DNA of 50,722 nucleotides from Clostridia bacterium (GTDB lineage: Bacteria; Bacillota; Clostridia; Oscillospirales; CAG-382): assembly GCA_017563195.1 (NCBI GenBank), contig JAFXDO010000043.1:1-50722 (forward strand). Reading direction: 5' to 3'. Of this stretch, positions 10,761 to 33,346 are shown one piece after another. The position numbers were made by a program, and so were the translations under genes. The notes under the pieces were generated by a model. The model was not told the DNA's origin, did not search any database, and worked only from the letters and a program-made list of their open reading frames with translations. The first letter of the stretch is position 1. The number at the start of each line of letters is the position of its first letter.

Positions 10761-10999
10761 GAAAGGAATCGCGGGCGTGTAACACGCCAAATAAAGCCCG
10801 CGGTAAACGCAAAACAGACAAAAAGCCTCTTTCCGCGTGGAGCAGAGGTAAACAATAACAGAAAGGAATCGCGAAGTAGAAGTAAACAAGCGCGTTAACC
10901 AAGTCTGTAGAACCTTGTAGAACCTCCCAAGCTTCTGTAAGGTCTCGCGGAGAGAAGTTAACGAGTCCGTTGCATCGAAAATCGCGAAATTAAGAAAAA
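10761..10999 (+). promoter_or_regulatory. CGCG-box leader repeat before the DUF1015 gene (units B-A-C)
   Basis: Unit B (10769-10868): CGCGGGC pairs with GCCCGCG around a nested GGCGTG-TAA-CACGCC hairpin, then a CCTCT...AGAGG hairpin (10826-10848) and AGAAAGG. Unit A (10869-10950): TCGCGA, AAGTAAACAAG, then the long hairpin ACCTTGTAGAA...TTCTGTAAGGT (10912-10943). Unit C (10945-10987): TCGCGG to TCGCGA enclosing GTTAACGAGTCCGTT. The ATG follows 12 bases later with no Shine-Dalgarno sequence. Matching copies occur before valS, dnaN, gyrB and gyrA. Confidence 0.8.
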
Positions 11000-12253
11000 A
11001 TGGCAGGAATTAAGCCGATAAAGGCATTAAGATTTACCGAAAAGGCGGGAAACATTGCAGACTGTGTCTGCCCGCCGTACGACATCATATCCGAAAGCGA
11101 AAGGGAAGCGCTGATCGCGCGTAACGAAAACAACGTCGTGCGCCTTGAGCTCCCCGTCGGCGAGGACAGATACAAGGAGGCAGGCAAGACGCTCAACAGC
11201 TGGCTCAACAGCGGCGTGCTTGCGAGAGACGAGCAGGAGGGCATCTACGTCTACCGCGAGGAGTTCAACGTAGGCGGAAAGGACTACTGCCTCACCGGTA
11301 TGATCTGCCTCGTTCAGCTTTGCGAGTTTTCCGAGCGCATCATTCTCCCGCACGAGGAAACGCTCACCAAGGCTAAGCAGGACCGTCTCAACCTTATGAT
11401 GGGCACCGGCTGCAACTTCTCGTCCATCTACTCGCTCTATTCCGACGAAAGCGGCGACATTGCAGGCATTCTCGACGAAAAGACCAAGGAATCGCCCATC
11501 TGCCGCTTCACCGACGAGGAAGAGGTTACCCACACCCTGTGGAAAATCGAAGACGCAGGTAAGCTCGGTGTGATAATCAACACGCTTGCCGACAAGCAGC
11601 TCTTCATCGCTGACGGTCACCACAGATACGAAACCGCGCTCAACTACAAGAAGGCGCTCGAGTCGACCACCGCAGGCGCAGACGCGAGCCACGTAATGAT
11701 GACGCTCGTCGATATGGACGACAAGGGGTTGGTCGTTTTCCCGACGCACAGACTTATTGTTGACAAGAGCGTGAGCAGGGAAGAGCTTATCGCCAAGTGC
11801 GAAAAGGATTTTGAGACGAAAACGCTTCCGCTGTGCGAGCTTAAGGGCGCGCTTGCAGACGGCGAGGACGCTCACACCTACGCGTTTTACGACGGCGGCG
11901 ACGATTTCGTGCTTCTCACCCTCAAGGAGTCGGCAAAGCGCAACATAGACGGCAGAAGCGACGCATACAGCGATCTCGACGTCAGCATACTCCACTCCTT
12001 CGTGCTTGAAAACGCGCTCGGGATCGACAAGGAGAACATGGCGAACCAGATCAACCTCCGCTATACCCGCTCGATGGACGAGGCTATCGAGTCGGTCAAG
12101 TCGGGTAAGGCTACCGCGGCGTTCCTTATCAACGCAACCAAGGTCAGCCAGATCAAGGCTGTCGCGCTCGCGGGCGACAAAATGCCCCAGAAGAGCACCT
12201 ATTTCTACCCCAAGCTCAAAACCGGCTTGGTTATGAACGTCCTTAAGAAGTGA
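11000..12253 (+). CDS. DUF1015 family protein
   Basis: Member of the DUF1015 family (Pfam), whose biochemical role is not established. The 417-residue protein has the typical opening (GIKPIKALRFTEK...CVCPPYDIIS) and the conserved DGHHRYETALNYK motif near residues 210-222; the His pair and acidic residues suggest a hydrolase- or kinase-like metal site, but this is inference. Length is normal for the family. It starts with an ATG 12 bases after a CGCG-box leader unit and lacks a Shine-Dalgarno sequence. The valS leader begins immediately at its stop codon and no terminator intervenes, so it is probably co-transcribed with valS. Confidence 0.85.
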   Translation: MAGIKPIKALRFTEKAGNIADCVCPPYDIISESEREALIARNENNVVRLELPVGEDRYKEAGKTLNSWLNSGVLARDEQEGIYVYREEFNVGGKDYCLTGMICLVQLCEFSERIILPHEETLTKAKQDRLNLMMGTGCNFSSIYSLYSDESGDIAGILDEKTKESPICRFTDEEEVTHTLWKIEDAGKLGVIINTLADKQLFIADGHHRYETALNYKKALESTTAGADASHVMMTLVDMDDKGLVVFPTHRLIVDKSVSREELIAKCEKDFETKTLPLCELKGALADGEDAHTYAFYDGGDDFVLLTLKESAKRNIDGRSDAYSDLDVSILHSFVLENALGIDKENMANQINLRYTRSMDEAIESVKSGKATAAFLINATKVSQIKAVALAGDKMPQKSTYFYPKLKTGLVMNVLKK

Positions 12254-12554
12254 GGCGTGTAACACGCCTTTTAAAAGCCCGCGGTAAAGGTCAAGTCAAT
12301 CGAAAACCTTCTGCCCGCGTGGAACAGAGGTAAACAATAACAGAAAGGAATTGCGAAGTAGAAGTAAACAAGCGTGTTAACCAAGTCTGTAGAACCTTGT
12401 AGAACCTCCCAAGCTTCTGTAGGGTCTCGCGGCGAGAAGTTAACAAGTCCGTTAACCAAGTCTGTAGAACCTTGTAGAACCTCCCAAGCTTCTGTAAGGT
12501 CTCGCGGCGAGGGCGAAACAAGCTTGTTGCTTGGTCTATCGCGACTGTAAAAAT
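12254..12554 (+). promoter_or_regulatory. CGCG-box leader repeat before valS (units B-A-A-C)
   Basis: Starts directly after the DUF1015 stop with hairpin GGCGTG-TAA-CACGCC (12254-12268), then GCCCGCGG and an ACCTTCTG...CAGAGGT hairpin. Two A units follow; the segment from GTTAACCAAG to CTCGCGGCGAG is directly duplicated at 12376 and 12451, a 75-base period. The final C unit (12502-12544) encloses AACAAGCTTGTT and ends 10 bases before the ATG. There is no Shine-Dalgarno sequence and no recognisable T-box. Confidence 0.8.
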
Positions 12555-15239
12555 ATGGAGAAGAAGTATAATCCTGCCGATTTTGAGGAACGGCTTTATA
12601 ACGAATGGGACAGTAAGGGCTACTTCAAGCCCGCCGGAAAAGAGGGAAGCGAGGCGTTTTCTATCGTAATGCCGCCTCCCAACATCACGGGTCAGCTTCA
12701 CATGGGCCACGCGCTCGACAACACGCTTCAGGACGTGCTGGTAAGATACAAGAGAATGTGCGGCTACGACACGCTCTGGCTCCCCGGCACCGACCACGCA
12801 TCCATCGCGACCGAGGCAAAGATCGTCGAAGCGATGAGAAAAGAGGGGATCACCAAGGAAGACCTCGGCAGAGAGGGCTTTTTGGAGCGCGCGTGGGAGT
12901 GGAACAACACCTACGGCGGCAGGATCTGCGAGCAGCTCAAGAAGCTCGGCTCGTCCTGCGACTGGTCGAAGCGTCGCTTCACGCTTGACGACGGATGCTC
13001 CGAGGCAGTCAAGGAGGTTTTCGTCAAGCTTTATAACGAAGGGCTCATCTACCGAGGAAACCGTATGGTCAACTGGTGCACCACCTGTATGACCTCTATT
13101 TCCGACGCAGAGGTAGAATACGAGGACCAGAACGGCAGCTTCTACCATCTTCTTTATCCGGTAAAGGAAACCGGCGAGATGCTCGAGCTTGCGACCACCC
13201 GTCCCGAAACCATGCTCGGCGATACCGCCGTTGCGATCAACGCCGACGACCCCAGATATGCACATCTTCACGGCTGCCACGTAATGCTGCCGCTTATAAA
13301 CAAGGAAATTCCGATCGTTTGCGACGAGCACGCCGATATGACAAAGGGTACGGGCGTGGTTAAGATCACCCCCGCTCACGACCCCAACGACTACGAGGTA
13401 GGTCAGCGTCACGAGCTTCCGCTTGTACGAGTGTTCACCTACGACGGCAGGATGACGGGCGCTGCAGACAAGGCGGAATACGAGGAAAGCCTGGCACGCG
13501 GCACCGCCGCTGTCGGCGAGCCCGAGGTGCTCGACTGCGGCAAATACGCAGGTATGACCACCGTTGAGGCGCGCAAGGCGATTCTCGCAGACCTTCAGGA
13601 GCTTGGTCTCTTGAAGTCGGTCGAGCCGCTCACCCACAACGTCGGCACCTGCTACCGTTGCCACCACGTTATCGAGCCGATGGTCTCGAAGCAGTGGTTC
13701 GTATCGATGAAGCCGCTTGCTGAGCCGGCTATCGAGGCTGTAAAGAGCGGCGAAGTACGTTTCATCCCCGACAGATTCTCCAAAAACTACCTCCACTGGA
13801 TGGAAAATATCCGCGACTGGTGCATCTCGCGTCAGCTTTGGTGGGGTCACAGGATCCCCGCATTCTATTGCGACGACTGCGGCGAGCTTGTCGTAACCAA
13901 GGAAAACGAGGCGACCTGCCCGAAATGCGGCAAGGCTATGCGTCAGGACCCCGACACGCTCGACACTTGGTTCTCTTCGGCGCTCTGGCCCTTCTCGACG
14001 ATGGGCTGGCCCGACGAAAACGCCGAGCTGCTCAAGCGCTTCTACCCGACAAATACGCTTGTTACCGGCTACGACATCATCACCTTCTGGGTATCGAGAA
14101 TGATCTTCTCGGGACTCGCGCACACCGGCAAAAAGCCGTTTACCGACGTGTTTATACACGGTCTCGTGCGTGACGCGCTCGGCAGAAAGATGTCGAAATC
14201 GCTCGGCAACGGCATCGACCCGCTCGAGGTCATCAAGACCTACGGTGCAGACGCGCTCAGATTCACGCTTGCGACCGGCAACAGCCCCGGAAACGATATG
14301 CGTATCTCCGACGAACGCTTCGAGGCGTCGCGTAACTTCGCGAACAAGATCTGGAACGCCGCAAGATTCGTGCTTATGAACCTCGATACCGACTGCGACA
14401 CCGACAATATCGACGTTTCGACGCTTGCCGAGGAGGACAAGTGGGTGCTCTCGCTTTACAACCGTGTTGTAGGCGAGGTACGCGACAACATCGACAGGTA
14501 CGAGCTCGGCATCGCCGTTTCGAAGCTTTACGACTTCATCTGGGACGTATTCTGCGACTGGTACATCGAGCTTGTCAAGCCGAGACTGCAGGAAAAGGGA
14601 AGTGCAAGCAACCTCGCGGCACAGAACACCCTCACCTACGTGCTTTCCAACACCTTGAAGCTCCTGCATCCCTTTATGCCCTTCATCACCGAAGAGATCT
14701 GGCTTGCGCTCCCCCACAAGGGCGAAAGCATTATGATATCCGACTATCCCACCGTCAAGCCCGAGCTTGACTTCCCCGAATCCGAGCGCAATATGGACGT
14801 TATGCTTACCGCTATCCGCGCGATCCGCAACCGCCGCGCCGAAATGAACGTTCCGCCCAAGAGACTGGCAAACGTGATCATCGCGACCGCGGAAAAGGAG
14901 CTTTTCGCCGATAAGGAGCCCTTCTTTACCCGTCTTGCGTCGGCTTCCGGCATCACCGTCGTTGACAAGTGCGACGACGAGGGCACAGTCAGGATCGTAA
15001 CCAACGCCTGCGAGATCTTCCTCCCGCTTGCCGACATTGTCGACACCGAGGCAGAGCGCGAACGCCTTACCAAGGAGCTCGCAAACGCAGAAAACGAGAT
15101 CAAGCGCGCTCAGGGCAAGCTCAACAACGCCGAATTCGTCAACAAGGCGCCCGAAAAGGTCGTCAACGCCGAAAAGGAAAAGCTTGTCAAGTTCCAAGAG
15201 CTCGCCGCAAAGCTCCGCGCCTCCATCGAAAGCCTTTAA
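12555..15239 (+). CDS. valS: Valyl-tRNA synthetase
   Basis: Class I aminoacyl-tRNA synthetase that charges tRNA-Val and edits misactivated threonine. The 894-residue protein has the HMGH signature (about 49-52) after PPPNITG, an editing CP1 insertion (TTRPETMLGDTAVA), a Cys4 zinc-type segment (CDDCG...CPKCG), KMSKS near residue 545, and a C-terminal coiled coil (ERERLTKELANAENEIKRAQ) that contacts tRNA. The ATG at 12555 gives the family N-terminus MEKKYNPADFEERLY; an in-frame TTG at 12531 lies inside the leader repeat and is less likely. Firmicutes valS genes are commonly preceded by a T-box, but here the CGCG-box leader occupies that place. Confidence 0.96.
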   Translation: MEKKYNPADFEERLYNEWDSKGYFKPAGKEGSEAFSIVMPPPNITGQLHMGHALDNTLQDVLVRYKRMCGYDTLWLPGTDHASIATEAKIVEAMRKEGITKEDLGREGFLERAWEWNNTYGGRICEQLKKLGSSCDWSKRRFTLDDGCSEAVKEVFVKLYNEGLIYRGNRMVNWCTTCMTSISDAEVEYEDQNGSFYHLLYPVKETGEMLELATTRPETMLGDTAVAINADDPRYAHLHGCHVMLPLINKEIPIVCDEHADMTKGTGVVKITPAHDPNDYEVGQRHELPLVRVFTYDGRMTGAADKAEYEESLARGTAAVGEPEVLDCGKYAGMTTVEARKAILADLQELGLLKSVEPLTHNVGTCYRCHHVIEPMVSKQWFVSMKPLAEPAIEAVKSGEVRFIPDRFSKNYLHWMENIRDWCISRQLWWGHRIPAFYCDDCGELVVTKENEATCPKCGKAMRQDPDTLDTWFSSALWPFSTMGWPDENAELLKRFYPTNTLVTGYDIITFWVSRMIFSGLAHTGKKPFTDVFIHGLVRDALGRKMSKSLGNGIDPLEVIKTYGADALRFTLATGNSPGNDMRISDERFEASRNFANKIWNAARFVLMNLDTDCDTDNIDVSTLAEEDKWVLSLYNRVVGEVRDNIDRYELGIAVSKLYDFIWDVFCDWYIELVKPRLQEKGSASNLAAQNTLTYVLSNTLKLLHPFMPFITEEIWLALPHKGESIMISDYPTVKPELDFPESERNMDVMLTAIRAIRNRRAEMNVPPKRLANVIIATAEKELFADKEPFFTRLASASGITVVDKCDDEGTVRIVTNACEIFLPLADIVDTEAERERLTKELANAENEIKRAQGKLNNAEFVNKAPEKVVNAEKEKLVKFQELAAKLRASIESL

Positions 15240-15262
15240 TAGTATATAATATATGGCAATAT

Positions 15263-15326
15263 ACGAGAGACCCCTTTTGCAAAAGGGGTCTCTCGTGCTC
15301 TCTCCCCAAAAACCTTTAAAATAAAA
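15263..15326 (+). terminator. Conserved 3' hairpin element after valS
   Basis: Perfect 34-base palindrome (15263-15296): ACGAGAGACCCCTTTTG pairs with its complement, followed by the tail GCTCTCTCCCCAAAAACC and TTTAAAATAAAA. Same family as 10605-10672 and 20915-20975. Confidence 0.65.
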
Positions 15327-15345
15327 TATATATATTCAAGTCTGT

Positions 15346-15427
15346 TAAAGGGGTTCAGAGCAGATGCAGACTGTGCAAACACAGCCCGCCGCTGTAGAAA
15401 TCTACTGCAAGCGGCTGTGTTTGTGCA
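15346..15427 (+). repeat. Dispersed palindromic repeat, copy 1
   Basis: Long imperfect inverted repeat: TGCAAACACAGCC (15374-15386) pairs with GGCTGTGTTTGTGCA (15413-15427), with inner GTAGA/TCTAC pairing. A related copy lies on the minus strand at 36640-36752. Flanked by GTTCAGAG. No protein is supported. Confidence 0.65.
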
Positions 15428-15640
15428 GAATGAAATGCTCTGCGCTGCTATGGATCCCTTTGCAGCATCCATATAATTTAACAAAAACGGCTGTGTTTGT
15501 GCAGAACGAAATGTTCTGCGCTGCTATGGACCCCTTTGCACCATCCATATAATTCAACAAAAATGGCTGTGTTTGTGCAGAACGAAATGCTCTGCGCTGC
15601 TATGGACCCCTTTGCAGCATCCATATAATTTAACAAAAAT
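15413..15640 (+). repeat. Three 76-bp tandem repeats upstream of the RNB gene
   Basis: Units begin GGCTGTGTTTGTGCAG at 15413, 15489 and 15565, with exact 76-base spacing. A truncated fourth unit at 15641 contributes the bases just before the -35 box of the next promoter. Units differ at a few positions (for example CCCTTTGCAGCATCC versus CCCTTTGCACCATCC). Each unit can form a GCAGAAC...GTTCTGC hairpin and an ATGGA...TCCAT hairpin. The first unit overlaps the right arm of the dispersed palindromic repeat. Confidence 0.85.
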
Positions 15641-15643
15641 GGC

Positions 15644-15672
15644 TTGACACGGCAATATATATGCGTTAAAAT
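15644..15672 (+). promoter_or_regulatory. Sigma-A promoter of the RNB-family gene
   Basis: TTGACA (15644-15649), 17 bases, TAAAAT (15667-15672), 36 bases before the start codon. It abuts the last tandem repeat, whose GGCT start is shared with the -35 region. Confidence 0.75.
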
Positions 15673-15708
15673 CAGTATGAATATATATAATATAAAGGAA
15701 GCGAAATT

Positions 15709-17148
15709 ATGCAGAACGGACAGATGACACAGAATATAGTCTTCAGCGCCTTCCCGAAGAAGGTTTTGGAGCAGGCAACCGCGGCAACCAAGCTGCGCAC
15801 CTCGTCTCAGCTTGCACGCAGGCACGACCTGCGAAGCAAAACCGTGTTGACCTTCAGCGAAACCGCCGACAGCAACGCCGAATGCGCCATTTCGCTCAAT
15901 AAATCCTCGTCGGGCTGGCAGCTTACCGTCCACATCGCCGACGTTGCCGAATACGTCTGCGAGGGCTCGCCCCTCGATTCCGAGGCGCGCTACCGCAACG
16001 CCGCCTTCAGAAACGGCTTCGTTAAATCGGATATGCTTCCCGAAGGCATCACAAACGAGGTCTGTAACCTGCAATCGGGCAAGGACAGGCTTTGTGTGTC
16101 CGTTTTATTGGACATTGACACCAAGGGCAACCTTAATGACGTGCTTGTAGAGGAAACCGTGGTCCGCGTTGCCGAAAAATGCGTATATACCGAGCTCGAC
16201 CAGCTTGGTATGGCGCAGGAGGCATCATCGATACACGTGCTCCGCGAGAAATACCGCCCCTATATGGCGATCCTCACCGAAATGTATGAGCTTGCGGCAA
16301 TATTCTGCGACCGCCGACGCAAAAACGGCGGGCTTGACTGCAGCGTATATCGCAGAACGTACAACCGTGACGAAAACGGCAGGGTAATCGGATTTTCCTT
16401 CGAAACCGAGCCCGACAGCCGCGCGATGGTGCGTGAGATAGGGTATTTTGCCGCCGAAGCTATCGGAAGCTATCTGTATTCCAACAAAATGCCCTGCATT
16501 TTCATCGGACAGCAAGGACTCGGCGACGAGGAGCTCGATTATCTCGCAAAGCTTCTCGACGCAGACACCGTCTGCGCGTCCAAGCTCGGCAGGACCGTCG
16601 AGCTTGCAGAGCTCGCAAAGGGCTCGAAATATTACGATTTCGTATGCGGCGCCCTGCGCGAAAGACTGCCGAGAGCCGAATTTTCGACACAACCCATCTA
16701 CAACCTGCATTGTGCGTCCGACAAGGTGGTCTCCTTCGTCCGCCCCGCAACGCGTTACACCGACCTTTTGACCCAGCGCACCTTAAAAACCTGCATTGCC
16801 GCCTCGAGCGACCCCAAGAACCTGAACATCAACCGCTACCGTCAGCTTATTCAGGCGGCGGCAGAAAGCGCAAACAGAGCCGAGGAGTTCGTCCACGGCG
16901 TAACCATGCGCTTCCGCGATATTGCGGCGCAGGAATATATCGAATCGAGCGAGGACACAATATTCTACGGGTTCCCGTTCAAGCGTGAGCCCGACGGAAG
17001 ACTGCTCGTAAACCTGCTTTGTGGTGCAAACGGATATGTTCCCGCAGAGCTTGCATCCGATTCGCTCGAATTCGGCAGACTTTCCGCATTTGAAATAACC
17101 GACAAGGGGAACGAAGAGGTTCTTTGCAGCCTCAAGCCTACAGAATAA
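15709..17148 (+). CDS. RNB-domain protein with degenerate active site
   Basis: Homologue of the catalytic RNB domain of RNase II/RNase R. The frame RRHDLRSKTVLTF, GWQLTVHIADVAEYVCEGSPLD, MLPEGITNEVCNL and RPATRYTDLLTQRTLK match conserved RNB blocks (compare RRDL, IADVSHYV, MLPE..SNGLCSL and SPIRRYPDLL). In active enzymes the first block continues with four metal-binding aspartates (E. coli RNase II D201, D207, D209, D210). Here the aligned stretch FSETADSNAECA has S, N, E and C in those places, so exonuclease activity is unlikely. Cold-shock and S1 domains are not apparent in the 479 residues. AAGGAAGCG precedes the ATG. An RNA-binding or structural role is possible; the function is unknown. 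Confidence 0.75.
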   Translation: MQNGQMTQNIVFSAFPKKVLEQATAATKLRTSSQLARRHDLRSKTVLTFSETADSNAECAISLNKSSSGWQLTVHIADVAEYVCEGSPLDSEARYRNAAFRNGFVKSDMLPEGITNEVCNLQSGKDRLCVSVLLDIDTKGNLNDVLVEETVVRVAEKCVYTELDQLGMAQEASSIHVLREKYRPYMAILTEMYELAAIFCDRRRKNGGLDCSVYRRTYNRDENGRVIGFSFETEPDSRAMVREIGYFAAEAIGSYLYSNKMPCIFIGQQGLGDEELDYLAKLLDADTVCASKLGRTVELAELAKGSKYYDFVCGALRERLPRAEFSTQPIYNLHCASDKVVSFVRPATRYTDLLTQRTLKTCIAASSDPKNLNINRYRQLIQAAAESANRAEEFVHGVTMRFRDIAAQEYIESSEDTIFYGFPFKREPDGRLLVNLLCGANGYVPAELASDSLEFGRLSAFEITDKGNEEVLCSLKPTE

Positions 17149-17164
17149 TGTTTCACGTGAAACC
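17149..17164. other. parS: parS centromere-like site 1
   Basis: TGTTTCACGTGAAACC, a 15/16 match to the ParB recognition palindrome TGTTTCACGTGAAACA, directly after the TAA of the RNB gene. Confidence 0.88.
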
Positions 17165-17185
17165 TTTTTCTGCAAAATAACATTT

Positions 17186-17201
17186 TGTTTCACGTGAAAC
17201 A
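17186..17201. other. parS: parS centromere-like site 2
   Basis: TGTTTCACGTGAAACA, a perfect 16-base ParB site, 21 bases after site 1 and just before the lipoprotein start. ParB binding here would load chromosome segregation and SMC complexes about 10 kb from oriC. No parAB genes are in the window. Confidence 0.93.
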
Positions 17202-17220
17202 ATCCGAACGGAGAATGATA

Positions 17221-18675
17221 TTGAAAAAGAGATTAACCGCACTATTATTGCTGATAATACTGACAATAACCGTCGCAGGCTGTGAAAACGTAGAATATAT
17301 CACAAAAAGCGAAGCCGGCGAGGAGGAATCCAAGAATATTTACGAGCAGCTCGACGAGGACCTGCCCGACCTCACACCCGGTGAAGACGGCGAGGTGATC
17401 GAGCAGTCGTTCGTCATCGCAACCAACAAAGCCTCGGTATTTTACAACGAGGAGGGCGCGGCATCGTCGATTTCGCGTGCTGTCGAGGACAGAACCGTCT
17501 TTTTGAAGGACAAATACGGCGCAAACGTCACCGTAAAGGAGGTTTCTTCGAAGGATCTCACGAACGAGCTTAAGACAGCGATCGAATCGGGGATACCCTA
17601 TTGCGATATGATCTGCGTGTCGGCTAAGGACACGGTAAAGCTTTACACCGCAGGGCTTTTGGGAGATATGAACAAGCTCCCGAGCTTTGATATCGAAAGC
17701 GCGTACTTCGATCCGAACAACGCAAAGGCGCTTGCCACAAACTCGACTCTTTATATGCTTGCCGACCCGACGGCACAGGTTTACGAGGAGACCTACGTGA
17801 TGTTTTTCAATCGCGATCTCGTGAACACAGCCGCAGGAAAGGACCCCGAATCGCTTGTAATGCAAGGAAAATGGACATGGGACGCCTTTAACGAAACGGC
17901 TCGCGCGGCGGCACCCAAGGTTTATAACAAATCGGCGTCCGACATTCTCGTAGACACCTTCGGATACGCCTCTTATTATTCAGAGGGGACCTTCCCGCTG
18001 GTAATGTGGAACTCCTGCGGGCTCCATCTTGTCGATAACACCTATAAAAATCCCGTTTCGCTTTCGATGACGGTCGATGAGATCACTTCATATGCTTCCA
18101 AGCTGAAGAGCAGCTATAACTCGCGCGGACGCTTTCCGCTCGAGGGTGCAGACGCGGCGAAGGCGTTTGAAGAGGGAAGACTCGCGTTTTTCTGTAACAA
18201 GCTCGACTATTTCTACGCTTTGCGCGACGGAACGACTCTCGGAAGCAACTACGGAATGCTGCCGATGCCGAAATACGACGAGAATCAAAAGGATTATCAT
18301 TGTATGGTAGGCAGCGACGCGAGAGTGTTCTCGATCCCGAAAAGCGTCGAAAACGCCGATGAAAGCAGAAAAATGTTCGTTTCCGCGGTAATTCAGGCGA
18401 CCTGCGCATCGGGCAGAACCACCATAAAGAAGGCGTTTTTGAATCACCACATCGCGACCTACCTTAACAATAACGCCGAAACCGTGATGCTTCAGACCAT
18501 ACTCGACAGCGTGTATTTCGATTTTGCAACCGTTTACGGAAGCAATATCAGCGCGATACGCCGTGCAACGACGACGGCTGTTTCCGACTATATCGAGTTC
18601 GGCTCGGGGCTGTCGAATTCCATCGCGAGCGCAAAGCCCAATTTCGAGAAATATTGCTCGGATAATTTCTCTTAA
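17221..18675 (+). CDS. Extracellular solute-binding lipoprotein
   Basis: Likely ABC-transporter substrate-binding protein (family 1 type, often sugars) tethered outside the membrane. The N-terminus MKKRLTALLLLIILTITVAGC has a lipobox (VAGC) about 20 residues in. Features such as YVMFFNRDLV, GKWTWDAFNETARAA, WNSCGLHLVD, AAKAFEEGRLAFF and VFSIPKSVENAD follow the usual pattern of these proteins. The start is taken as TTG at 17221, seven bases after GGAG (17210-17213); an in-frame TTG at 17185 lies within parS site 2 and would give an odd N-terminus, and an ATG at 17215 is too close to the GGAG. No permease or ATPase gene is adjacent, so it is an orphan. Confidence 0.78.
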   Translation: MKKRLTALLLLIILTITVAGCENVEYITKSEAGEEESKNIYEQLDEDLPDLTPGEDGEVIEQSFVIATNKASVFYNEEGAASSISRAVEDRTVFLKDKYGANVTVKEVSSKDLTNELKTAIESGIPYCDMICVSAKDTVKLYTAGLLGDMNKLPSFDIESAYFDPNNAKALATNSTLYMLADPTAQVYEETYVMFFNRDLVNTAAGKDPESLVMQGKWTWDAFNETARAAAPKVYNKSASDILVDTFGYASYYSEGTFPLVMWNSCGLHLVDNTYKNPVSLSMTVDEITSYASKLKSSYNSRGRFPLEGADAAKAFEEGRLAFFCNKLDYFYALRDGTTLGSNYGMLPMPKYDENQKDYHCMVGSDARVFSIPKSVENADESRKMFVSAVIQATCASGRTTIKKAFLNHHIATYLNNNAETVMLQTILDSVYFDFATVYGSNISAIRRATTTAVSDYIEFGSGLSNSIASAKPNFEKYCSDNFS

Positions 18676-18701
18676 ATCGCTTCAAAATATTGGAAAAGCT
18701 A

Positions 18702-18730
18702 TTGATTTAAGGCGGTATTTGGTATATAAT
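18702..18730 (+). promoter_or_regulatory. Sigma-A promoter of pgk
   Basis: TTGATT, 17 bases, TATAAT, located 74 bases before the pgk start codon. Confidence 0.7.
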
Positions 18731-18803
18731 AGCCTTGATTGGGAAGAAATTCCCGTTGAATAACGAAAACAAAAAAATAATACAAAATGAGGAGAAATTC
18801 CAA

Positions 18804-20009: not shown

Positions 20010-20030
20010 TATTATCGACACGAAATTACC

Positions 20031-20075: not shown

Positions 20076-20112
20076 ATATTTTATATATTTATTACAAAAG
20101 GATTAATAAATT

Positions 20113-21468: not shown

Positions 21469-21516
21469 GAAAACTTTTGCAAAAGTTTTCCGAACCTTTC
21501 AAAATCCTTTAAAATA
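21469..21516 (+). terminator. Type II 3' hairpin element between tpiA and jag
   Basis: Perfect 22-base palindrome GAAAACTTTTGCAAAAGTTTTC followed by CGAACCTTTCAAAATCC and TTTAAAATA. The tail orientation fits plus-strand transcription, presumably readthrough from tpiA. Confidence 0.55.
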
Positions 21517-21520
21517 TATA

Positions 21521-21568
21521 AAAAAAGTGCCCTAAAGTCAGGTCAAACTAACTTCGGAGCACTTTTAA
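21521..21568. terminator. Bidirectional intrinsic terminator between tpiA and jag
   Basis: AAAAAAGTGCCC-TAAAGT pairs imperfectly with AACTT-GGAGCACTTTT. A and T runs on each side allow it to work in both directions. Confidence 0.65.
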
Positions 21569-24356: not shown

Positions 24357-24393
24357 TTCAAAAAACTCAATCGGATATTTTCGTTAAAAACGA

Positions 24394-24528
24394 TTAATAG
24401 GTGAGTCTTGCTCTACCCTTAGCGCGTCTTCTCTTGAGAACCTTTCTGCCGTTAGCGGTAGCCATTCTCTTTCTGAAGCCGTGCTCCATCTTTCTGTGTC
24501 TCTTCTTGGGCTGATATGTTCTGAGCAT
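24394..24528 (-). CDS. rpmH: Ribosomal protein L34
   Basis: 44-residue, highly basic 50S subunit protein. Translation of the minus strand starts [18 protein letters not shown] and ends [25 protein letters not shown] is the family signature. GGAGG lies 9 bases before the ATG. First gene of the conserved rpmH-rnpA-yidD-yidC-jag group, reading away from dnaA. Confidence 0.97.
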
Positions 24529-24611
24529 TGGTTTTGCACCTCCAATTATTATTCAAAAAACAGTTAACTGATGACTATTCTGCAGCCGTGGTCCGCAGAG
24601 CATAGCAACAT

Positions 24612-24641
24612 ATTATATACCGAAAATTCCCTGTTTGTCAA
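24612..24641 (-). promoter_or_regulatory. Sigma-A promoter of rpmH
   Basis: Minus strand TTGACA (24641-24636), 18 bases, TATAAT (24617-24612). About 85 bases before the rpmH start. Confidence 0.78.
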
Positions 24642-24658
24642 GTGTTTTCGCGCATTTT

Positions 24659-26173
24659 TTAAGCAATGCTTGCGTAAAGAGCGATGCTCGAAATACAGAA
24701 AAATGCACTCAGCGTTATTGTGAAAATTCGGATAAAACCAAACATTTTGTTGTTTTTGTCGATTCGGTCGTTCAAATACCCAATATATAGCGCACCAAAA
24801 ACAACGGTCAGCGCGATATAACGAAAGTCCATCGTGCAAAAATGCGGGAATTCAAAGCAGAATTTAATATAAGAAATCAATAAAACAAGCGAGCAAATTG
24901 CCGTCGAAATAAGCAAATTGAGCTTGCTTTTTTCTCTTTTTGCCGCAAAAACGATCGAATAAGCAAAGGATATGATAGAAAAAACGGCGAGGACGACACC
25001 GGTATAAAATAAAATTGTTGCAAATATTTCGCTGAAGCCGTTGCCGAGCCCTATGTAGTATTCCCCGAATACCGAGCTTTTAAGTGCGCCGAGCGGAATA
25101 TTGTATTCGTAATGATCGAATACCCCCTCCATGCTCTTTACAGCTCTTGCGGGATAGACACCGTTTTCAAAAAGCGAGGTGAAATCGAAAAGCCGCTCGC
25201 GTATGCTGTGAAAGCCGATATATTGCGTGCTGTTTTCGGGAAGCATCGGCACGTAGGTCATCGGAATACCGAATCTTATAAGGTTTCTTACCTGCCACCA
25301 AAGCGAAATCGGTGCACAGATGACGCCGAAAACGATGAATTGAAGAAAAATATTCAGCTTTTTCTTATGCCTTTTCCCAAAAAGCACGATTGCAAAAAGA
25401 AATGCAATACCGACAGATATCAAGCCGCCCGAAAGCTTTACACCCATCGCAAAACCTATCGAAAGCGCAAGGGGGATGATCTTTGTAAATCTCGGATCCT
25501 TGTACCAATCGATGGCGAGCGTGAGCGAAAGCAGAGAAAGCATCAGCGACAAAACGTCGTTGTTCACGCTTGCCGAAAGCAGAATAAAGGTCGGGTGAAA
25601 GGCAACGACGGCGAAGGAAGCACAAAGCGGAAGCCCTTTAATTTCAAGCTGTCTGAAGAGCTTCAATGCAAGCAGTGAAATAAAGCTCGAGCAGAGCATC
25701 GAGATAAACTGAATATTTTCAAGCGCGACCGTGTGCGGGATATGAAAAAGAGTCTGAAGCCTTAAAAACGAAGCGCAAATAAAATGCCAGACCGGCGGCT
25801 GATAGTACTGCCACGACTCAAGTGTGCCGACGGCAGGCAGCTCTTCACCGTTAAAAAGCGTCATTATGTAGTCGTAATGCCCGTTGTCACCGAAAACGTC
25901 GTGCTGACGTACGAAAAACGGCGTGGTCTGCACGTAGCAGAGCCTGAAGGCAAGCGAAATTACAAACAGCAGCGAAAGCAGCGTTTTTTCGTCAAGCGTG
26001 CGCTCACGCGATACAAAAACGACGTAAAGAAGGCATACGCAGGAGGTGGATATAAAAATGATCCGCGAAATATTGAAGGCGCCGCCCTGCTTCGGGAAAA
26101 TTATATTCAGAATACAGAAAATTACGCAAATTATCAGCGTGGAAAGGTATTTGCGCTTCAAGAGCCCGCTCAT
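24659..26173 (-). CDS. GT-C type membrane glycosyltransferase (GT39/PMT-like)
   Basis: Predicted polytopic enzyme that transfers a sugar from a lipid-phosphate carrier to an extracellular acceptor. The 504 residues form about 11-13 membrane helices. The first extracytoplasmic loop has acidic and His residues (RQHDVFGDNGHYDYIMTLFN, about 89-108) followed by YYQPPVWHF, the arrangement seen in ArnT/PMT-like GT-C enzymes. AAAGGAGG precedes the ATG and a near-perfect promoter lies upstream. It ends 18 bases before the rpmH -35 box with no terminator of its own. Its place between rpmH and dnaA, normally gene-free, is unusual. The acceptor is unknown. Confidence 0.72.
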   Translation of the reverse strand: MSGLLKRKYLSTLIICVIFCILNIIFPKQGGAFNISRIIFISTSCVCLLYVVFVSRERTLDEKTLLSLLFVISLAFRLCYVQTTPFFVRQHDVFGDNGHYDYIMTLFNGEELPAVGTLESWQYYQPPVWHFICASFLRLQTLFHIPHTVALENIQFISMLCSSFISLLALKLFRQLEIKGLPLCASFAVVAFHPTFILLSASVNNDVLSLMLSLLSLTLAIDWYKDPRFTKIIPLALSIGFAMGVKLSGGLISVGIAFLFAIVLFGKRHKKKLNIFLQFIVFGVICAPISLWWQVRNLIRFGIPMTYVPMLPENSTQYIGFHSIRERLFDFTSLFENGVYPARAVKSMEGVFDHYEYNIPLGALKSSVFGEYYIGLGNGFSEIFATILFYTGVVLAVFSIISFAYSIVFAAKREKSKLNLLISTAICSLVLLISYIKFCFEFPHFCTMDFRYIALTVVFGALYIGYLNDRIDKNNKMFGFIRIFTITLSAFFCISSIALYASIA

Positions 26174-26208
26174 CCCGAAAACCTCCTTTTTAAAGTATTC
26201 TACCGCAA

Positions 26209-26237
26209 ATTATAATGCAAGTTACCGGATATGTCAA
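26209..26237 (-). promoter_or_regulatory. Sigma-A promoter of the glycosyltransferase gene
   Basis: Minus strand TTGACA (26237-26232), 17 bases, TATAAT (26214-26209); both boxes are perfect. Divergent from the dnaA promoter, with a very AT-rich stretch (26238-26300) between. Confidence 0.85.
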
Positions 26238-26300
26238 TAACCCTGCATATAATAAGGAATATATTATATATAATATACGTTAAAATATATGTAAAAGGAC

Positions 26301-26329
26301 TTTACAATTTGGAAATGATGTGATATAAT
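26301..26329 (+). promoter_or_regulatory. dnaA: Sigma-A promoter of dnaA
   Basis: TTTACA, 17 bases, TATAAT, 60 bases before the dnaA ATG. A weak DnaA-box-like 9-mer (TTTTACACA on the minus strand, 26346-26354) lies in the leader and could allow autoregulation. Confidence 0.82.
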
Positions 26330-26389
26330 CAAATATGTATATTTATGTGTAAAACCCGACACGCGAAAAATCAAACGCGGAGTATAAAA

Positions 26390-27712
26390 ATGACAGATAA
26401 CGAATTAAAGCAAATAAAGCTTTTTGCTCTTGAGGAGCTTGAAAAGCTGTATTCCTCGGCAACGGTGAGCCTTTGGTTCAAGCCGATGCGGGTCGTGGCA
26501 GTCGACGTAAGCTGCATCACGGTCTCGCTTCCCGAAAACCGCAAGGCGTTTGTCGAATCCTCTTACTACAACGTGCTTCAGGAGGTATATTCGAGAGTCA
26601 TCGGCTGTGATATCGAGCTTAGGCTGATCACCGACGAGGAGGAGGCGGAAATGAGCCGCGAGTTCACCGAAGTGGTCGACTCGGCTTACAAGATGCGCTT
26701 CAACCCCGAATACACCTTTGAAAACTTCGTCGTCGGCAAGTCGAACCAGCTTGCACAGTCGGCATCGCTCGCGGTAGCAAATCATCCGGCGGAGCTTAAC
26801 AACCCGCTCTTCCTTTACGGACCGTCGGGACTCGGCAAGACCCACCTTTTGTTCTCGATAGTAAATGAAATAAGAAAAAATCACCCCAATTTCAACATAC
26901 TCTACGTCACGGGCGAGGAATTCACGAACGAGCTTATCGAATCGCTTTCTTTAAAGAAGCCGATGGCGTTCCGCGAAAAGTACAGAAACGTAGACGTTCT
27001 GCTTGTCGACGACATACAGTTCATCGCGGGCAAGATGTCGGTGCAGGAGGAGTTCTTCCACACCTTCGACACGCTCTTTAAGATGAACAAGCAGATAATT
27101 CTCGCATCCGACTGCGCGCCCAAGGACATAAACAACCTTGAGGACCGACTCAAGAGCCGATTCGTCATGGGCTTGGTCGCAGACATTCAGCCGCCCGATT
27201 TAGAGCTTCGCGTCGCGATATTCAAGCGCAAGGCGATCGATTTCAACTACGATATGGATCTTGACGTGCTTTATTACCTCGCCAAAAACATCACGACGAA
27301 CATCCGTCAGATCGAGGGCGCGTTGAAGAAGCTCAAGGCACACACGCTGATAACCGGCGAAAACTGCGACGTTTACGTGGCTAAAAAGGTATTGAACGAG
27401 TTTTTCGCTAACGAAAACAGCAAGGAATCGGTTATTGAACGGGTATTCAGCTTCGCTGAAAAGCGATACGGCGTCAAGCGCGAGGAGATCGTCGGGCACA
27501 GAAGAAGCTCGGACATCATCTCGGCAAGGCACTACGCTATCTACCTTATCCGACACACGACGAATCTTTCCCAGACCTCGATTGCGAAGCTATTCAACAA
27601 AAAGGACCACACGACCGTTATCAACTCGATAAGCTTTATCGAAAAGAAGATGGACAACGAGCCTGCCTTTGCACGCGAGATCGAATCTGCGATAGCCGAG
27701 CTCCGATCGTAA
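26390..27712 (+). CDS. dnaA: Chromosomal replication initiator DnaA
   Basis: AAA+ ATPase that binds DnaA boxes and opens oriC. The 440 residues show domain I (MTDNELKQIKLFALEELEKL...WFKPMRVV), Walker A GPSGLGKTHL, Walker B VLLVDDIQFIAGK, sensor region NNLEDRLKSRF (box VII-like) and the C-terminal DNA-binding domain with GHRRSSDIISARHYAIYL and KKDHTTVINSI. The ATG at 26390 follows CGGAG by 8 bases and gives the normal N-terminus; an in-frame ATG at 26345 would add 15 unlikely residues. It is transcribed alone from 26301 and ends at the terminator 27737-27756. Confidence 0.97.
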   Translation: MTDNELKQIKLFALEELEKLYSSATVSLWFKPMRVVAVDVSCITVSLPENRKAFVESSYYNVLQEVYSRVIGCDIELRLITDEEEAEMSREFTEVVDSAYKMRFNPEYTFENFVVGKSNQLAQSASLAVANHPAELNNPLFLYGPSGLGKTHLLFSIVNEIRKNHPNFNILYVTGEEFTNELIESLSLKKPMAFREKYRNVDVLLVDDIQFIAGKMSVQEEFFHTFDTLFKMNKQIILASDCAPKDINNLEDRLKSRFVMGLVADIQPPDLELRVAIFKRKAIDFNYDMDLDVLYYLAKNITTNIRQIEGALKKLKAHTLITGENCDVYVAKKVLNEFFANENSKESVIERVFSFAEKRYGVKREEIVGHRRSSDIISARHYAIYLIRHTTNLSQTSIAKLFNKKDHTTVINSISFIEKKMDNEPAFAREIESAIAELRS

Positions 27713-27736
27713 ATTACACGCTTTCAGCCGAAAAAC

Positions 27737-27756
27737 AAAAGGGTACCACCCTTTTT
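27737..27756 (+). terminator. Intrinsic terminator after dnaA
   Basis: AAAAGGGT, ACC loop, ACCCTTTTT. It begins 25 bases after the stop codon. Confidence 0.8.
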
Positions 27757-27776
27757 GCAAAAAGAAAAGAAACTAT

Positions 27777-27909
27777 TTATAATAGTATTTATTAGTATTA
27801 TTAGTAATAGTAGTCTCGGTGGATTGGTGGAAAGAGCCGCCGCGCTGTGTGCCGCAAGCAAATTTCGACCTTTAACGCGTGGACAAACTGTGCACACGCC
27901 TGTGGACAA
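27777..27909. other. oriC: Candidate origin of replication (oriC) between dnaA and dnaN
   Basis: Contains an AT-rich tract ending in TAGTAATAGTAG (27802-27813), which matches the pattern of the DnaA-trio unwinding motif of Bacillus. A GC-rich stretch follows, then DnaA-box-like 9-mers on the minus strand: TTGTCCACG (27886-27878) and TTGTCCACA (27909-27901), each close to TTATCCACA, with TGTGCACA between them. Genes on either side diverge in direction at dnaA. The distance from trio to boxes (about 65 bases) is longer than in Bacillus, so exact limits are uncertain. Confidence 0.65.
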
Positions 27910-27962
27910 CTCCGATTTGTGAGTGGATTCGGTTATGGAGTACGATTTTTGGAGTACGGTTT

Positions 27963-28014
27963 TTGGGAAACTTTTGCAAAAGTTTCCCAAACCCTTCAAA
28001 ATCCTTTAAAATAA
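27963..28014 (+). terminator. Type II 3' hairpin element after oriC
   Basis: Perfect 28-base palindrome (27963-27990; TTGGGAAACTTTTG and its complement), followed by ACCCTTCAAAATCC and TTTAAAATA. It directly adjoins the dnaN promoter block. Confidence 0.6.
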
Positions 28015-28030
28015 AAAAATTAAGTTTAAA

Positions 28031-28079
28031 AACGTTACGTTGAAATTGACTTGACAGAGTGAATTGCAACAAATAATAG
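28031..28079 (+). promoter_or_regulatory. Shared promoter block of dnaN-recF-remB-gyrB
   Basis: Palindrome AACGTTACGTT (28031-28041), 9 bases, TTGACA (28051-28056), 17 bases, TAATAG (28074-28079). ACCGT-GTAG-ACGGT just downstream would form a hairpin at the transcript 5' end. Confidence 0.62.
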
Positions 28080-28113
28080 AACCGTGTAGACGGTAAAAAA
28101 ATTGTGAAAGGAA

Positions 28114-28168
28114 TCGCGGAGAGACCTCGACAAATTTGTTGTATGGACCATCGCGACTGTAAGAAAAA
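28114..28168 (+). promoter_or_regulatory. CGCG-box leader unit C before dnaN
   Basis: GAAAGGAATCGCGG opens a single C unit (28114-28156), with ACAA/TTGT inner pairing, that closes at TCGCGA. The ATG follows 12 bases later with no Shine-Dalgarno sequence. This is the simplest copy: units A and B are absent. Confidence 0.75.
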
Positions 28169-29287
28169 ATGAAGTTTGTGGCTGATAAGAAGACGTTGTT
28201 GTCGTTAATTATGCCGGCGGCGTCGGCGGCGTCGAATAAGACGACTCTGCCCGCGCTTGAGGGGTTGCTGTTCAGGCTCGAGGGGGATAACCTGACGGTT
28301 TGCGGCTATGACCTTGAAAAGGGCGTAAGGACCTCGGGCACGGTAGTACCGATGCAGGAGGGCGCGGTCATCATCAACGCGCAGAAGATCACGTCGATCA
28401 TAAGAAATTTCCCCGACTGTGATATCTGCATCGAATCCGACGACAGAAATATGGTTCGTATCAGCGGCGGCATGAGTGATTTCACCATCCACGGAGTCAC
28501 GGCTGAGGTCTATCCCGCGCTGCCCTCGCTCGGCGGTGATAACGCGTTCAATATTTCGCGCTCGCTGATGAAGGATATAATTAACAGTACGGTTTTTGCA
28601 GTCGCACAGAGCGAGGCGAGACCGATTCTGACAGGCGAGCTGTTTATGATCGAAAACAGGACGCTTACCGTTGTTGCACTCGATAACTTCAGACTCGCGA
28701 TGCGTGAGGAAAAGCATTGTGTGTTTGATAACGATAACAGATTCTCGTTCGTCGTGCCCGGCAAGGCGCTTTCCGACCTTGCAAAGCTGCTTGACGACAG
28801 CGACGAGTTCCTGAGGGTCGAGTTTACCGCGAAGTATATTATTTTCAAGCTCGGCGATATCGTGTTCTTCTCGAGATTGCTCGAGGGCGAGTATCTTGAT
28901 TACAGACGCGCGCTTCCGCAGTCGAACAGGATCTTTGCAACGATAAACAGAAGCGAGTTTATCGAATCGGCAGAGCGTGCGAGCCTGCTTGTCGATGAAA
29001 AATTGAGGACCCCGCTCCGCTGTAAGTTTGAGGATAACAGCCTCAATATTTCCTGCAGCACGCAGTACGGAAGCGTAAACGACAATTTGAAGATCAAAAA
29101 GGACGGCGACGACATCGAGATAGGGTTCAATAATAAGTATCTTCTCGACGCGCTCAGAGCCTGCAGAGACGAAAAGATTATTGCATCGCTTTCGACCCCG
29201 CTGATGAGTATGATGATCGAGCCCGCCGAAAAGAGCGAGGACAGCAATTATATTTATCTCGTGTTGCCTTGTAAGCTTAAGGATTAA
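28169..29287 (+). CDS. dnaN: DNA polymerase III beta sliding clamp
   Basis: Ring-shaped processivity factor that holds DNA polymerase on the template. The 372 residues start MKFVADKKTLLSLI and show the three-fold clamp pattern, with VVALDNFRLAMREE (family motif, about 160-173) and a C-terminal YIYLVLPCKLKD close to the usual LVLPMRL ending that lines the protein-binding pocket. Length is normal. The start is fixed by the leader unit and conserved N-terminus. recF follows after three bases. Confidence 0.96.
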   Translation: MKFVADKKTLLSLIMPAASAASNKTTLPALEGLLFRLEGDNLTVCGYDLEKGVRTSGTVVPMQEGAVIINAQKITSIIRNFPDCDICIESDDRNMVRISGGMSDFTIHGVTAEVYPALPSLGGDNAFNISRSLMKDIINSTVFAVAQSEARPILTGELFMIENRTLTVVALDNFRLAMREEKHCVFDNDNRFSFVVPGKALSDLAKLLDDSDEFLRVEFTAKYIIFKLGDIVFFSRLLEGEYLDYRRALPQSNRIFATINRSEFIESAERASLLVDEKLRTPLRCKFEDNSLNISCSTQYGSVNDNLKIKKDGDDIEIGFNNKYLLDALRACRDEKIIASLSTPLMSMMIEPAEKSEDSNYIYLVLPCKLKD

Positions 29288-29290
29288 ATA

Positions 29291-30367
29291 ATGCGAATAG
29301 AGCATTTGTCACTTCGGTCGTTTCGCAACGCGAGCGAAAGCGAAATAAGCTTTTTGCCGGGAGTGAACGTTATTTGCGGTGCCAACGCCGCGGGAAAAAC
29401 GAATATTTTAGAGGCGATATTTTATTTCGCCGCAGGCAAAAGCTTCAGAAACTGCAAGGATAGGGAGCTTATCTCGTTTGGGTGTGATAAGGGCAGCATC
29501 GCGATGCGCTTTGCCACCGAAAACGACGTGTATAAGATGTCCGCACAGCTTTCAAAGAGCGGCAGACGTGTGATAAGGCTCGGCGAAAGCGCACCCCTGA
29601 GGATGACCGAGTATATAGGCAGGTTCCGCGCCGTGATATTCACGCCCGACCATCTTAATCTGGTCAAGGGCGCGCCCGAAAACAGGCGCAGGTTTTTGGA
29701 TCTTGCCATTTGTCAGTCGTTTCCGCGGTATGCAAAGACGCTTTCCGAGTATAACCGCGTTCTTGCGCAGAAAAACGCGCTGCTCAAGCGCGGAAGCGTC
29801 AACGACGATCTGCTTTTCGTCTATAACGAGCGGCTTGCGACGCTTGCCGCGGTGATCACGGTCAACCGCCGTAAGTACGTGCAGAAGCTCGAGGAGGAGG
29901 CAAAAACGTTCCTGCTCGATATGAGCGACGGAAAGGAAAGCCTGACGCTCAGCTACCAGTCTCAGGGCGACGGAAGCACGCAGGAAGAGATAAAGGAAAG
30001 CTATTTAAAGCTGTTTAACGAAAAATCGGAATACGAAAAGGAACGGTTTTTGAGCCTTTACGGCGCACATAAGGACGACTTTTCGGTTTGTATAAATAAA
30101 AAAAGCGCGCGTATGTATGCGTCGCAGGGACAGCAGAGAAGCATCGTGCTTTCGCTGAAGCTTGCCGAGGGTGAGCTTTCGTATAAGCTGACGGGCGAGT
30201 ACCCCGTGTTTTTGCTTGACGACATACTTTCCGAGCTTGACAGCGACAGAAAGGAGTATATTCTGTCGCGCATCACCGACCGACAGGTGATAATAACCGG
30301 CTGTGAAAGCGAGATTTTCGAAAACGAGGGCAAGATTCTCGTTTGCGAGGGAAGGATCACGCAGTAG
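29291..30367 (+). CDS. recF: DNA repair protein RecF
   Basis: ABC-type ATPase that helps load RecA at gaps. The 358 residues begin MRIEHLSLRSFRNA, have Walker A GANAAGKTNILEA (about 30-42), the signature SQGQQRSIVLSLKLAE near 278-293 and Walker B FLLDDILSELD. It starts three bases after dnaN and its stop abuts the remB ATG, so it is in one operon with both. Confidence 0.95.
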   Translation: MRIEHLSLRSFRNASESEISFLPGVNVICGANAAGKTNILEAIFYFAAGKSFRNCKDRELISFGCDKGSIAMRFATENDVYKMSAQLSKSGRRVIRLGESAPLRMTEYIGRFRAVIFTPDHLNLVKGAPENRRRFLDLAICQSFPRYAKTLSEYNRVLAQKNALLKRGSVNDDLLFVYNERLATLAAVITVNRRKYVQKLEEEAKTFLLDMSDGKESLTLSYQSQGDGSTQEEIKESYLKLFNEKSEYEKERFLSLYGAHKDDFSVCINKKSARMYASQGQQRSIVLSLKLAEGELSYKLTGEYPVFLLDDILSELDSDRKEYILSRITDRQVIITGCESEIFENEGKILVCEGRITQ

Positions 30368-30625
30368 ATGAGATATTTACAGCTCGAAAAGGGCGAAAGC
30401 ATCGATAAAACGACGGTGATCGGGATATTCGATATCGAAACGGCGAGTATGTCGCAGGCGACGAAGGAGCTTTTCCGCCGCAAGGAGGAGGAGCACGGCG
30501 TCGTCAGCGTCAGCAACGACCTGCCGAAAAGCTTTGTGCTGACCGAAAACGAGTATAACGACAGCGTTTATATCACCGGTCTTTCGACCGAAAGCATAAA
30601 AAAACGGTTGGATAACAGCATAAGA

Positions 30626-30655
<30 letters not shown>
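30368..30655 (+). CDS. remB: RemB/YaaB-like DUF370 regulator with repeat-derived tail
   Basis: 95-residue homologue of Bacillus RemB (YaaB), which sits at the same place between recF and gyrB; the relative RemA activates matrix and osmoprotection genes by binding DNA. Matching features are VIGIFDIETASMSQATKELFRR, LPKSFVLTENEYNDSVYITGLSTESIKKR. The ATG directly follows the recF stop. The last codons (RSHSVWNRGQ) and the stop come from the start of the gyrB leader repeat (from about 30626), so the C-terminus looks replaced or extended by repeat sequence. The biological role here is inferred from homology only. Confidence 0.88.
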
Positions 30656-32932
<2,277 letters not shown>

Positions 32933-32950
32933 GGAAGTTTTAAACGGATT

Positions 32951-33004
32951 GGGGAAGCTTTTGCAAAAGCTCCCCCAAACCCCCGCAAAATCCTTTAAAA
33001 TAAA
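32951..33004 (+). terminator. Type II 3' hairpin element after gyrB
   Basis: GGGGAAGCTTTTG pairs with CAAAAGCTCCCCC, then AAACCCCCGCAAAATCC and TTTAAAATAAA. It is followed at once by the gyrA promoter block. Confidence 0.6.
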
Positions 33005-33017
33005 AAAATATAAAGTG

Positions 33018-33092
33018 CAAAAACGTTAGGTTCTACTCTTCGTAACGGGGAAAAAGAACTTATAAAGTGAATTGTAACAAATAATAGAACCT
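33018..33092 (+). promoter_or_regulatory. Shared promoter block of gyrA (diverged copy)
   Basis: AACGTTAGGTT replaces the palindrome, and an inserted stretch separates it from GTGAATTGTAACAAATAATAGAACC, which matches the -10 region of the dnaN and DUF1015 blocks. A clear -35 is lost, so promoter strength is uncertain. Confidence 0.45.
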
Positions 33093-33110
33093 CATAGACG
33101 GTAACAAATT

Positions 33111-33346
33111 TCAGAAAGGTATCGCGGGGGCGTGACGCCCCAAGCAGTTCCCGCGGTAAGACTTAACAAAAAACAAAAACCTCACTCCGCGTGGGTCGAG
33201 GTTAACAAACTAAAGAAAGGTATCGCATAGTCGAAGTAAACAAGCGCGTTAACCAAGTCTGTAGAACCTTGTAGAACCTCCCAAGCTTCTGTAAGGTCTC
33301 GCGGAGAGAAGTTAACGAGTCCGTTGCATCGAAAATCGCGACTTTA
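33111..33346 (+). promoter_or_regulatory. CGCG-box leader repeat before gyrA (units B-A-C)
   Basis: Unit B: CGCGGG/CCCGCG around GGGGCG-TGA-CGCCCC (33122-33156), then an ACCTC...GAGGT hairpin (33179-33202). Unit A: 33223-33304 with the same long hairpin as before the DUF1015 gene. Unit C: 33299-33341, almost identical to 10945-10987. The sequence after TCGCGA (CTTTAAGAAAAA) is interrupted where the ATG stands in other loci. Confidence 0.8.

Follow-up and report, generated by a model that had tools for sequence, protein, structure and literature searches.

The leaders of the DUF1015 gene, valS, dnaN, gyrB and gyrA in a 50,722-nt stretch of Clostridia bacterium DNA (the window) are built from common CGCG repeat units, and their sequences and modelled folds suggest that leaders of this kind are probably split ribosome-binding sites in which RNA structure closes the gap. 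The order of parts is an SD-like (Shine-Dalgarno-like) GAAAGG, a CGCG-type box, one or more units, a closing CGCGA, 9–12 A-rich nt and the ATG. We propose that the outer boxes would pair and turn the insert into a closed hairpin, and that closure would bring the SD and ATG to within 8–18 steps, close to the usual SD spacing of 8–12 nt (peak at 9–10 nt in four genomes). The 30S subunit could then pair with the SD, let the hairpin protrude and start at the ATG, as in T4 genes 25 and 38, and in this species the cassette of SD, hairpin and A-rich tail would have spread in many copies as a modular repeat. Genome G000, 1.71 Mb in size and 73% complete, includes the window as its contig C58; G002, G005, G006, G007 and similar labels denote the related genomes with which it was compared, and all of these sequences are draft assemblies.

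All five leaders lie on the plus strand, and the shared units of the original prediction were seen at each of them. Ahead of the DUF1015 gene, module U (10653–10760), which has 81% identity over 122 nt to the dnaN leader and partly matches that of gyrA (repeat families D3 and D4), is followed by GAAAGG with a B unit (10761–10860), a further SD-like GAAAGG (10861–10866) at the 5′ foot of an A-C composite hairpin, and the hairpin itself (10869–10987; z-score -4.2), with the ATG at 11000. The valS leader begins directly past the DUF1015 stop with a B unit (12254–12342), and continues with an SD-like GAAAGG (12343–12348) and an A-A-C array (12351–12544) to the ATG at 12555. That of dnaN comprises module U (27998–28105), an SD-like GAAAGG (28106–28111) and a single C unit (28112–28156), with the ATG at 28169. 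The gyrB leader holds GAAAGG plus a first A-C composite (30662–30788), GAAAGG plus a C unit in its middle (30800–30850) and a last A-C composite (30874–30993) before the ATG at 31004. Upstream of gyrA there is a variant of module U (33041–33113; repeat family D3), GAAAGG plus a B unit (33114–33214), GAAAGG plus an A-C composite (33215–33341), and then module D (33342–33514), which separates the C unit from the ATG at 33515. Module D is a ~170-nt multi-hairpin segment that also precedes an IF-2B-family gene on contig C35 (locus L016). B-type pieces on the minus strand (6185–6330) are distant from any start codon.

When 236 nt of the DUF1015 leader served as query, 57 matching pieces were found in G000 at E≤10. 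We then built a covariance model of unit C from an alignment of 29 sequences, 28 from G000 and one from G006, and ran it against 24 genomes of the genus, G000 included. There were 32 C matches in G000 at E≤1, 29 of them strong (E≤1.6e-6), although these 29 correspond to the 28 model-building sequences and one identical copy, with no further strong copy added. Two new copies appeared in G002 (3.5e-10 and 5.4e-6), giving three C copies at E<1e-5 in two same-genus genomes (G002 and G006), of which the G006 copy was in the model; the remaining genomes showed weak matches only. One weak C-type unit, in G016 (contig C122, L259), sits right before a gene start, at a candidate ATG where the frame appears interrupted. 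When 60 relatives were searched at the DNA level, two besides G000 gave a match, a genuine C unit in G006 and a stretch inside a long ORF in G057, and conservation of the sequence across the genus was therefore rejected. An exact pattern search of named genomes gave no match, with this genome or a near one possibly left out of that search. The CGCG repeats are real, with more copies than chance gives, and one species has amplified the family, which is sparsely represented in its relatives. The copies are interspersed, modular and equipped with inverted repeats, as in BOX/MITE-type repeats, and the leaders are U-B-A-C mosaics with tandem units. The array ahead of yebC is present in G000 only and absent from the 23 other same-genus genomes (110 nt read per leader), which is at most suggestive of empty sites. 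In G002 (contig C3, L242) a U-C copy faces the end of a presumed rplL, with no sense start codon near behind.

Placement relative to predicted start codons was examined for the 29 strong C copies out of the 32 matches; by our reading 23 are array-terminal and six array-internal. The predicted ATG of a long sense ORF lies 9–12 nt past the closing CGCGA in 14 of the 29, which is 14 of the 23 array-terminal copies, and this rules out placement that is random with respect to start codons. The directly led genes are DUF1015, valS, dnaN, gyrB, yebC, an ABC ATPase gene, mrp, pepF, mscL, mnmG, dapB, a SpoIIE-domain gene and two genes without family; mscL was counted by its second in-frame ATG (+10), another in-frame ATG being at +1. 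For DUF1015, valS, dnaN and gyrB the last C unit ends 10–12 nt before the ATG and the gap holds no SD, as had been noted. Two further array-terminal copies have an ATG at +22, each behind its own close SD, and seven have no ATG within 40 nt: one precedes, at a greater distance, RNase J with an SD of its own, two are separated by module D from gyrA and the IF-2B-family gene, and four have no sense gene near behind. The proposal of a replication and translation gene set proved too narrow, given that pepF, mscL, dapB, mrp, the ABC ATPase, the SpoIIE-domain gene and two family-less genes are also led and that certain copies have no close sense gene behind them. These gene-less copies indicate that the CGCG unit exists also without an obvious translational role. 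The suggestion that the valS and gyrB leaders lie in operons without a promoter fits a consensus promoter scan, which gave no plus-strand match in 10400–12600 and one weak match inside the gyrB array (mean of shuffles 0.6), although such a scan proves nothing. A terminator or attenuator was rejected, as A-runs follow the hairpins and a scan gave no plus-strand terminator in 10400–12600 or 30300–31010.

It had also been claimed that these leaders replace the SD, but an SD-like GAAAGG is present at the 5′ foot of the arrays. It lies 2–4 nt ahead of the first CGCG-type box in each array (variants TTGCG, TCGCA and TGCG) and 53–338 nt from the ATG. GAAAGG or GAAGGA was found upstream in all 14 of the directly led cases, at 50–334 nt from where the last unit ends. 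Counted back from the end of the last C unit, the nearest GAAAGG starts at 127 nt for DUF1015, 202 nt for valS, 51 nt for dnaN and 194 nt for gyrB. The pattern GAAAGGNNTCGCG occurs 15 times in G000 compared with 0 for the reversed control pattern, and 16 times compared with 37 in the other 23 genomes. An SD-box-gap-box-gap-ATG pattern occurs seven times in G000 compared with one for the control and has a match in 13 of 149 genomes; outside G000 the full layout was found only in G005, before metF and with a wholly different insert, the others being judged on the matched sequence alone. Both GAAAGG and the A-rich tail are part of the repeat, because both flank copies without a gene too.

Folding predictions supported the claim of a folded leader at the translation start. 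Single C units are predicted to form a CGCG basal stem with an apical hairpin, with z-scores over six leaders from -0.7 (dapB) to -3.1 (dnaN -1.4). A-C composites are predicted to fold as one long hairpin in which the 5′ end of A pairs with the 3′ end of C (z-scores of -5.2 for yebC, -4.2 for DUF1015 and -1.4 for mrp), and the consensus fold of 11 composites has 33 pairs. The z-scores of dapB, mrp and dnaN are weak. Units A, B and C are all present as repeat units, as originally described, but A and C are not independent in the composites, where they form a single hairpin. We measured folded distance as the shortest SD-to-ATG path through sampled structures, using 40 shuffled spacers as a control. 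This predicted 8.4–17.8 steps in 13 of the 14 G000 leaders, with gyrB staying at 25–31 steps; linear spacers of 338 nt (pepF), 206 nt (valS) and 201 nt (mscL) shrank to predicted distances of 14.0, 14.5 and 14.9, respectively. A distant SD together with structure that restores its spacing, as in the T4 split sites, was accordingly seen in anatomy and predicted fold for 13 of 14 leaders, gyrB being the exception. In a set of 27 leaders, where those from relatives had been chosen for having a stem and a wrong ATG was used for mscL and G005 dnaN, 25 were nearer than the shuffled-spacer mean, although only nine had ≤3 of 40 shuffles as close. Covariation in the C family was not significant (311 of 500 shuffles reached as many pairs changed on both sides), and in the composites it was marginal (26 of 500 by double-changed pairs; 29 of 500 by score). 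Pairing is not provable by covariation in the CGCG family because the CGCG boxes are invariant.

Relatives also have SD-hairpin-ATG leaders at dnaN, DUF1015, the ABC ATPase gene, valS, mnmG and gyrA. For dnaN, GAAAGG followed by a hairpin of different sequence and then the ATG was seen in G007, G005, G006 and G002, while an ordinary close SD precedes the gene in G013, G022, G019, G009, G012, G015 and G020; for the ten most distant genomes the reading was cursory. In G002 and G006 a second AAGG-type sequence past the dnaN hairpin could act as an SD. At mnmG there is a C unit in G000 and an ordinary SD in G016 and G022, and the stem is CGCCG/CGGCG in G006 versus CGCCU/AGGCG in its sister G002, one pair being changed on both sides; in G005, G007 and G013 a different, terminator-like hairpin lies close to the ATG, and a clear SD is lacking. 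Comparison of DUF1015 (19 loci minus the eight most distant) revealed hairpins in G006, G002 and G005 and an ordinary SD in the other seven of ten relatives, with a hairpin that comes ahead of the SD in G013. The ABC ATPase gene has hairpins in G005 and, nearly identical to each other, in G002 and G006. A hairpin precedes valS in G005, with a C-type unit then GGAG in G012 and ordinary leaders elsewhere; gyrB has C-type units then GGAG in G022 and a hairpin after AAGGAG in G002; and gyrA has a distal SD with a hairpin in G005 and G007. Many orthologues in relatives have ordinary SDs. A protein tree of five genes (≤150 aa each) groups the species with such hairpins in a subclade of eight (support 0.94), within which the dnaN leaders of G013 and G022 are plain. 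Layout rather than sequence seems to be kept across related species, because relatives put different hairpins between SD and ATG at the same genes.

We also scanned stretches of six genomes (1,224 genes), comprising 0.33–0.44 Mb each of G005, G002, G000 and G013, 67 kb of G006 and 34 kb of G007, with the G000 stretches partly picked for known copies. To match, a gene had to lack a close SD at all of its candidate starts and to carry a 6-mer SD 18–90 nt upstream, followed by a strong in-register stem. Among the 80 genes with only a distal SD there were 17 matches, compared with 4.35 for shuffled spacers and 3.7 for shuffled motifs, distributed as 4 of 265 genes in G005, 2 of 25 in G007, 0 of 54 in G006, 6 of 329 in G002, 5 of 310 in G000 and 0 of 241 in G013. 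One G002 match (L237) looks like chance. Eight of the 12 matches in G005, G007 and G002 are orthologues of the 17 array-led G000 genes where 0.51 would be expected (p = 7e-5, 0.01 and 2e-4, respectively), in a scan that was partly non-blind, since the dnaN hairpins (two of the eight) and metF were known beforehand, and across related species, so that shared genes are non-independent events. An earlier scan in which close SDs at any start were not excluded gave 17 matches against shuffled-motif means summing to 5.9, and a k-mer scan with loose stems was discarded as too noisy.

The same features could arise if the units were BOX- or MITE-like parasitic repeats in intergenic DNA, tolerated when folded away and of no benefit to host genes. 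The BOX elements of S. pneumoniae are modular interspersed repeats with variable inner units and a predicted RNA fold, cluster with other repeats, and were judged parasitic rather than specialised (PMC3049150). Our units share with these elements the interspersed modularity with varying inner-unit numbers, the predicted fold and the clustering with other repeats, and they differ in lying in sense, at a fixed distance to the ATG and behind an SD. A parasitic origin would account for the U-B-A-C mosaics and tandem units, the amplification in one species (a DNA search of 60 genomes gave a genuine match, G000 aside, in G006 alone), the gene-less copies, the G002 copy facing away from any start, and the likeness to pneumococcal BOX in modularity and fold (PMC3049150). 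However, it leaves unexplained both the constant 9–12 nt to a sense ATG and the unrelated same-register hairpins at the same genes elsewhere, and we regard it as unlikely.

Two other readings concern how initiation itself would work. The CGCG unit might be a regulatory RNA that gates initiation of a gene set, either as the binding site of a protein or another factor or by melting with temperature; a common unit before several housekeeping genes and the partial recurrence of this gene set in relatives would suit such a role, yet the hairpins of relatives have no common sequence, so there would be no common sequence-specific binder, and Rfam offered no match, which makes this reading very improbable. 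The view that the leaders match no known riboswitch or T-box held up, since a gathering-score Rfam search of the whole window gave 0 matches and both identities were rejected as no Rfam family matched. At relaxed thresholds there were 0 matches in 27900–33530 at E≤0.5, and those in 10500–12600 at E≤1 were confined to sub-threshold miRNA/sRNA families at 10502–10691, ahead of the CGCG units. Alternatively, ribosomes might initiate independently of an SD on the A-rich unstructured stretch before the ATG, GAAAGG being a leftover of the repeat. The 9–12 nt before the ATG are indeed A-rich, and by the SD pattern used here 36–48% of the genes sampled from four genomes lack a close SD at all candidate starts; nevertheless GAAAGG or another SD is kept at the hairpin foot despite diverged loops and in the unrelated hairpins of relatives, and the A-rich tail is likewise part of the repeat, so that we attach hardly any weight to this possibility.

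Within the preferred reading of split, structure-closed ribosome-binding sites, we tentatively entertain, as a possible but rather doubtful extension, that a self-spreading cassette replaces native ribosome-binding sites of housekeeping genes. This would be the recent expansion of an arrangement long established in the clade, with pairing selected while the sequence is free, and perhaps with shared control of initiation by RNA stability. SD, hairpin of almost any length and A-rich spacer would travel as one modular repeat, and the genes under split sites would be dnaN, gyrA, gyrB, valS, mnmG, DUF1015 and the ABC ATPase gene. Control dependent on RNA stability is possible, and as the hairpins of relatives share no sequence, a sequence-specific regulator would not be needed.

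The leader of E. coli thrS is also a split site, in which both a hairpin domain and a single-stranded domain precede the SD. These two domains are described, the single-stranded one as essential, and the ribosome accommodates the long hairpin in the binding region without unfolding (PMC3936740). A ribosome accommodating a long hairpin is what our leaders would have in common with thrS, and they differ in forming a repeat family, of which none is described for thrS. In T4 genes 38 and 25, according to a review, structure between SD and AUG cuts the spacing, which falls from 22 nt to 5 nt in gene 38 and from 27 nt to 11 nt in gene 25; destabilising this structure lowers initiation, and the split regions are shared by close T-even phages and missing from those more distantly related (PMC3014915). 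As in these T4 genes, RNA structure is predicted here to bring a too-distant SD to working distance. The T4 cases are single phage genes with inserts of 22–27 nt, whereas here chromosomal genes have inserts of 27–338 nt; unlike in T4, one species has turned the layout into a family of modular repeats, and its relatives carry hairpins of other sequence at the same genes. The mechanism itself is known from phage, and within the literature searched the extent, insert length, modular repeat form and keeping of layout without sequence appear to be new, with no report of genome-wide SD-hairpin-AUG leaders or such repeats in that literature, where subscription papers were thinly covered. If the reading is true, folding would set SD-to-start spacing over hundreds of nt in bacterial genes, and such starts would escape gene finders and be missed in counts of ‘SD-less’ genes. 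The leaders would also provide a natural series of lengths and sequences for asking how large a fold can separate SD from AUG before the 30S subunit no longer tolerates it, and an example of a repeat family that spreads by bringing along a working ribosome-binding site.

The window contains further repeats. Three tandem copies of a 76–80 nt repeat at 15413–15644 belong to a second intergenic repeat family that is unrelated to the CGCG units, and related to them are inverted arms at 15348–15454 and 36644–36750, a 107-nt stretch that is 85% complementary across 21 kb. Intergenic hairpin repeats of the CGAGAAA...TTTCTCG or AACTTTTGCAAAAGTT type occur at 10624–10669, 21471–21528, 27968–28025, 36812–36906 and 47663–47725, and hairpins similar to these are also found near the mnmG ATG in G005, G007 and G013. 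Finally, fifteen-nt tandem repeats are present at 6629–6718 within a minus-strand ORF (6470–7975).
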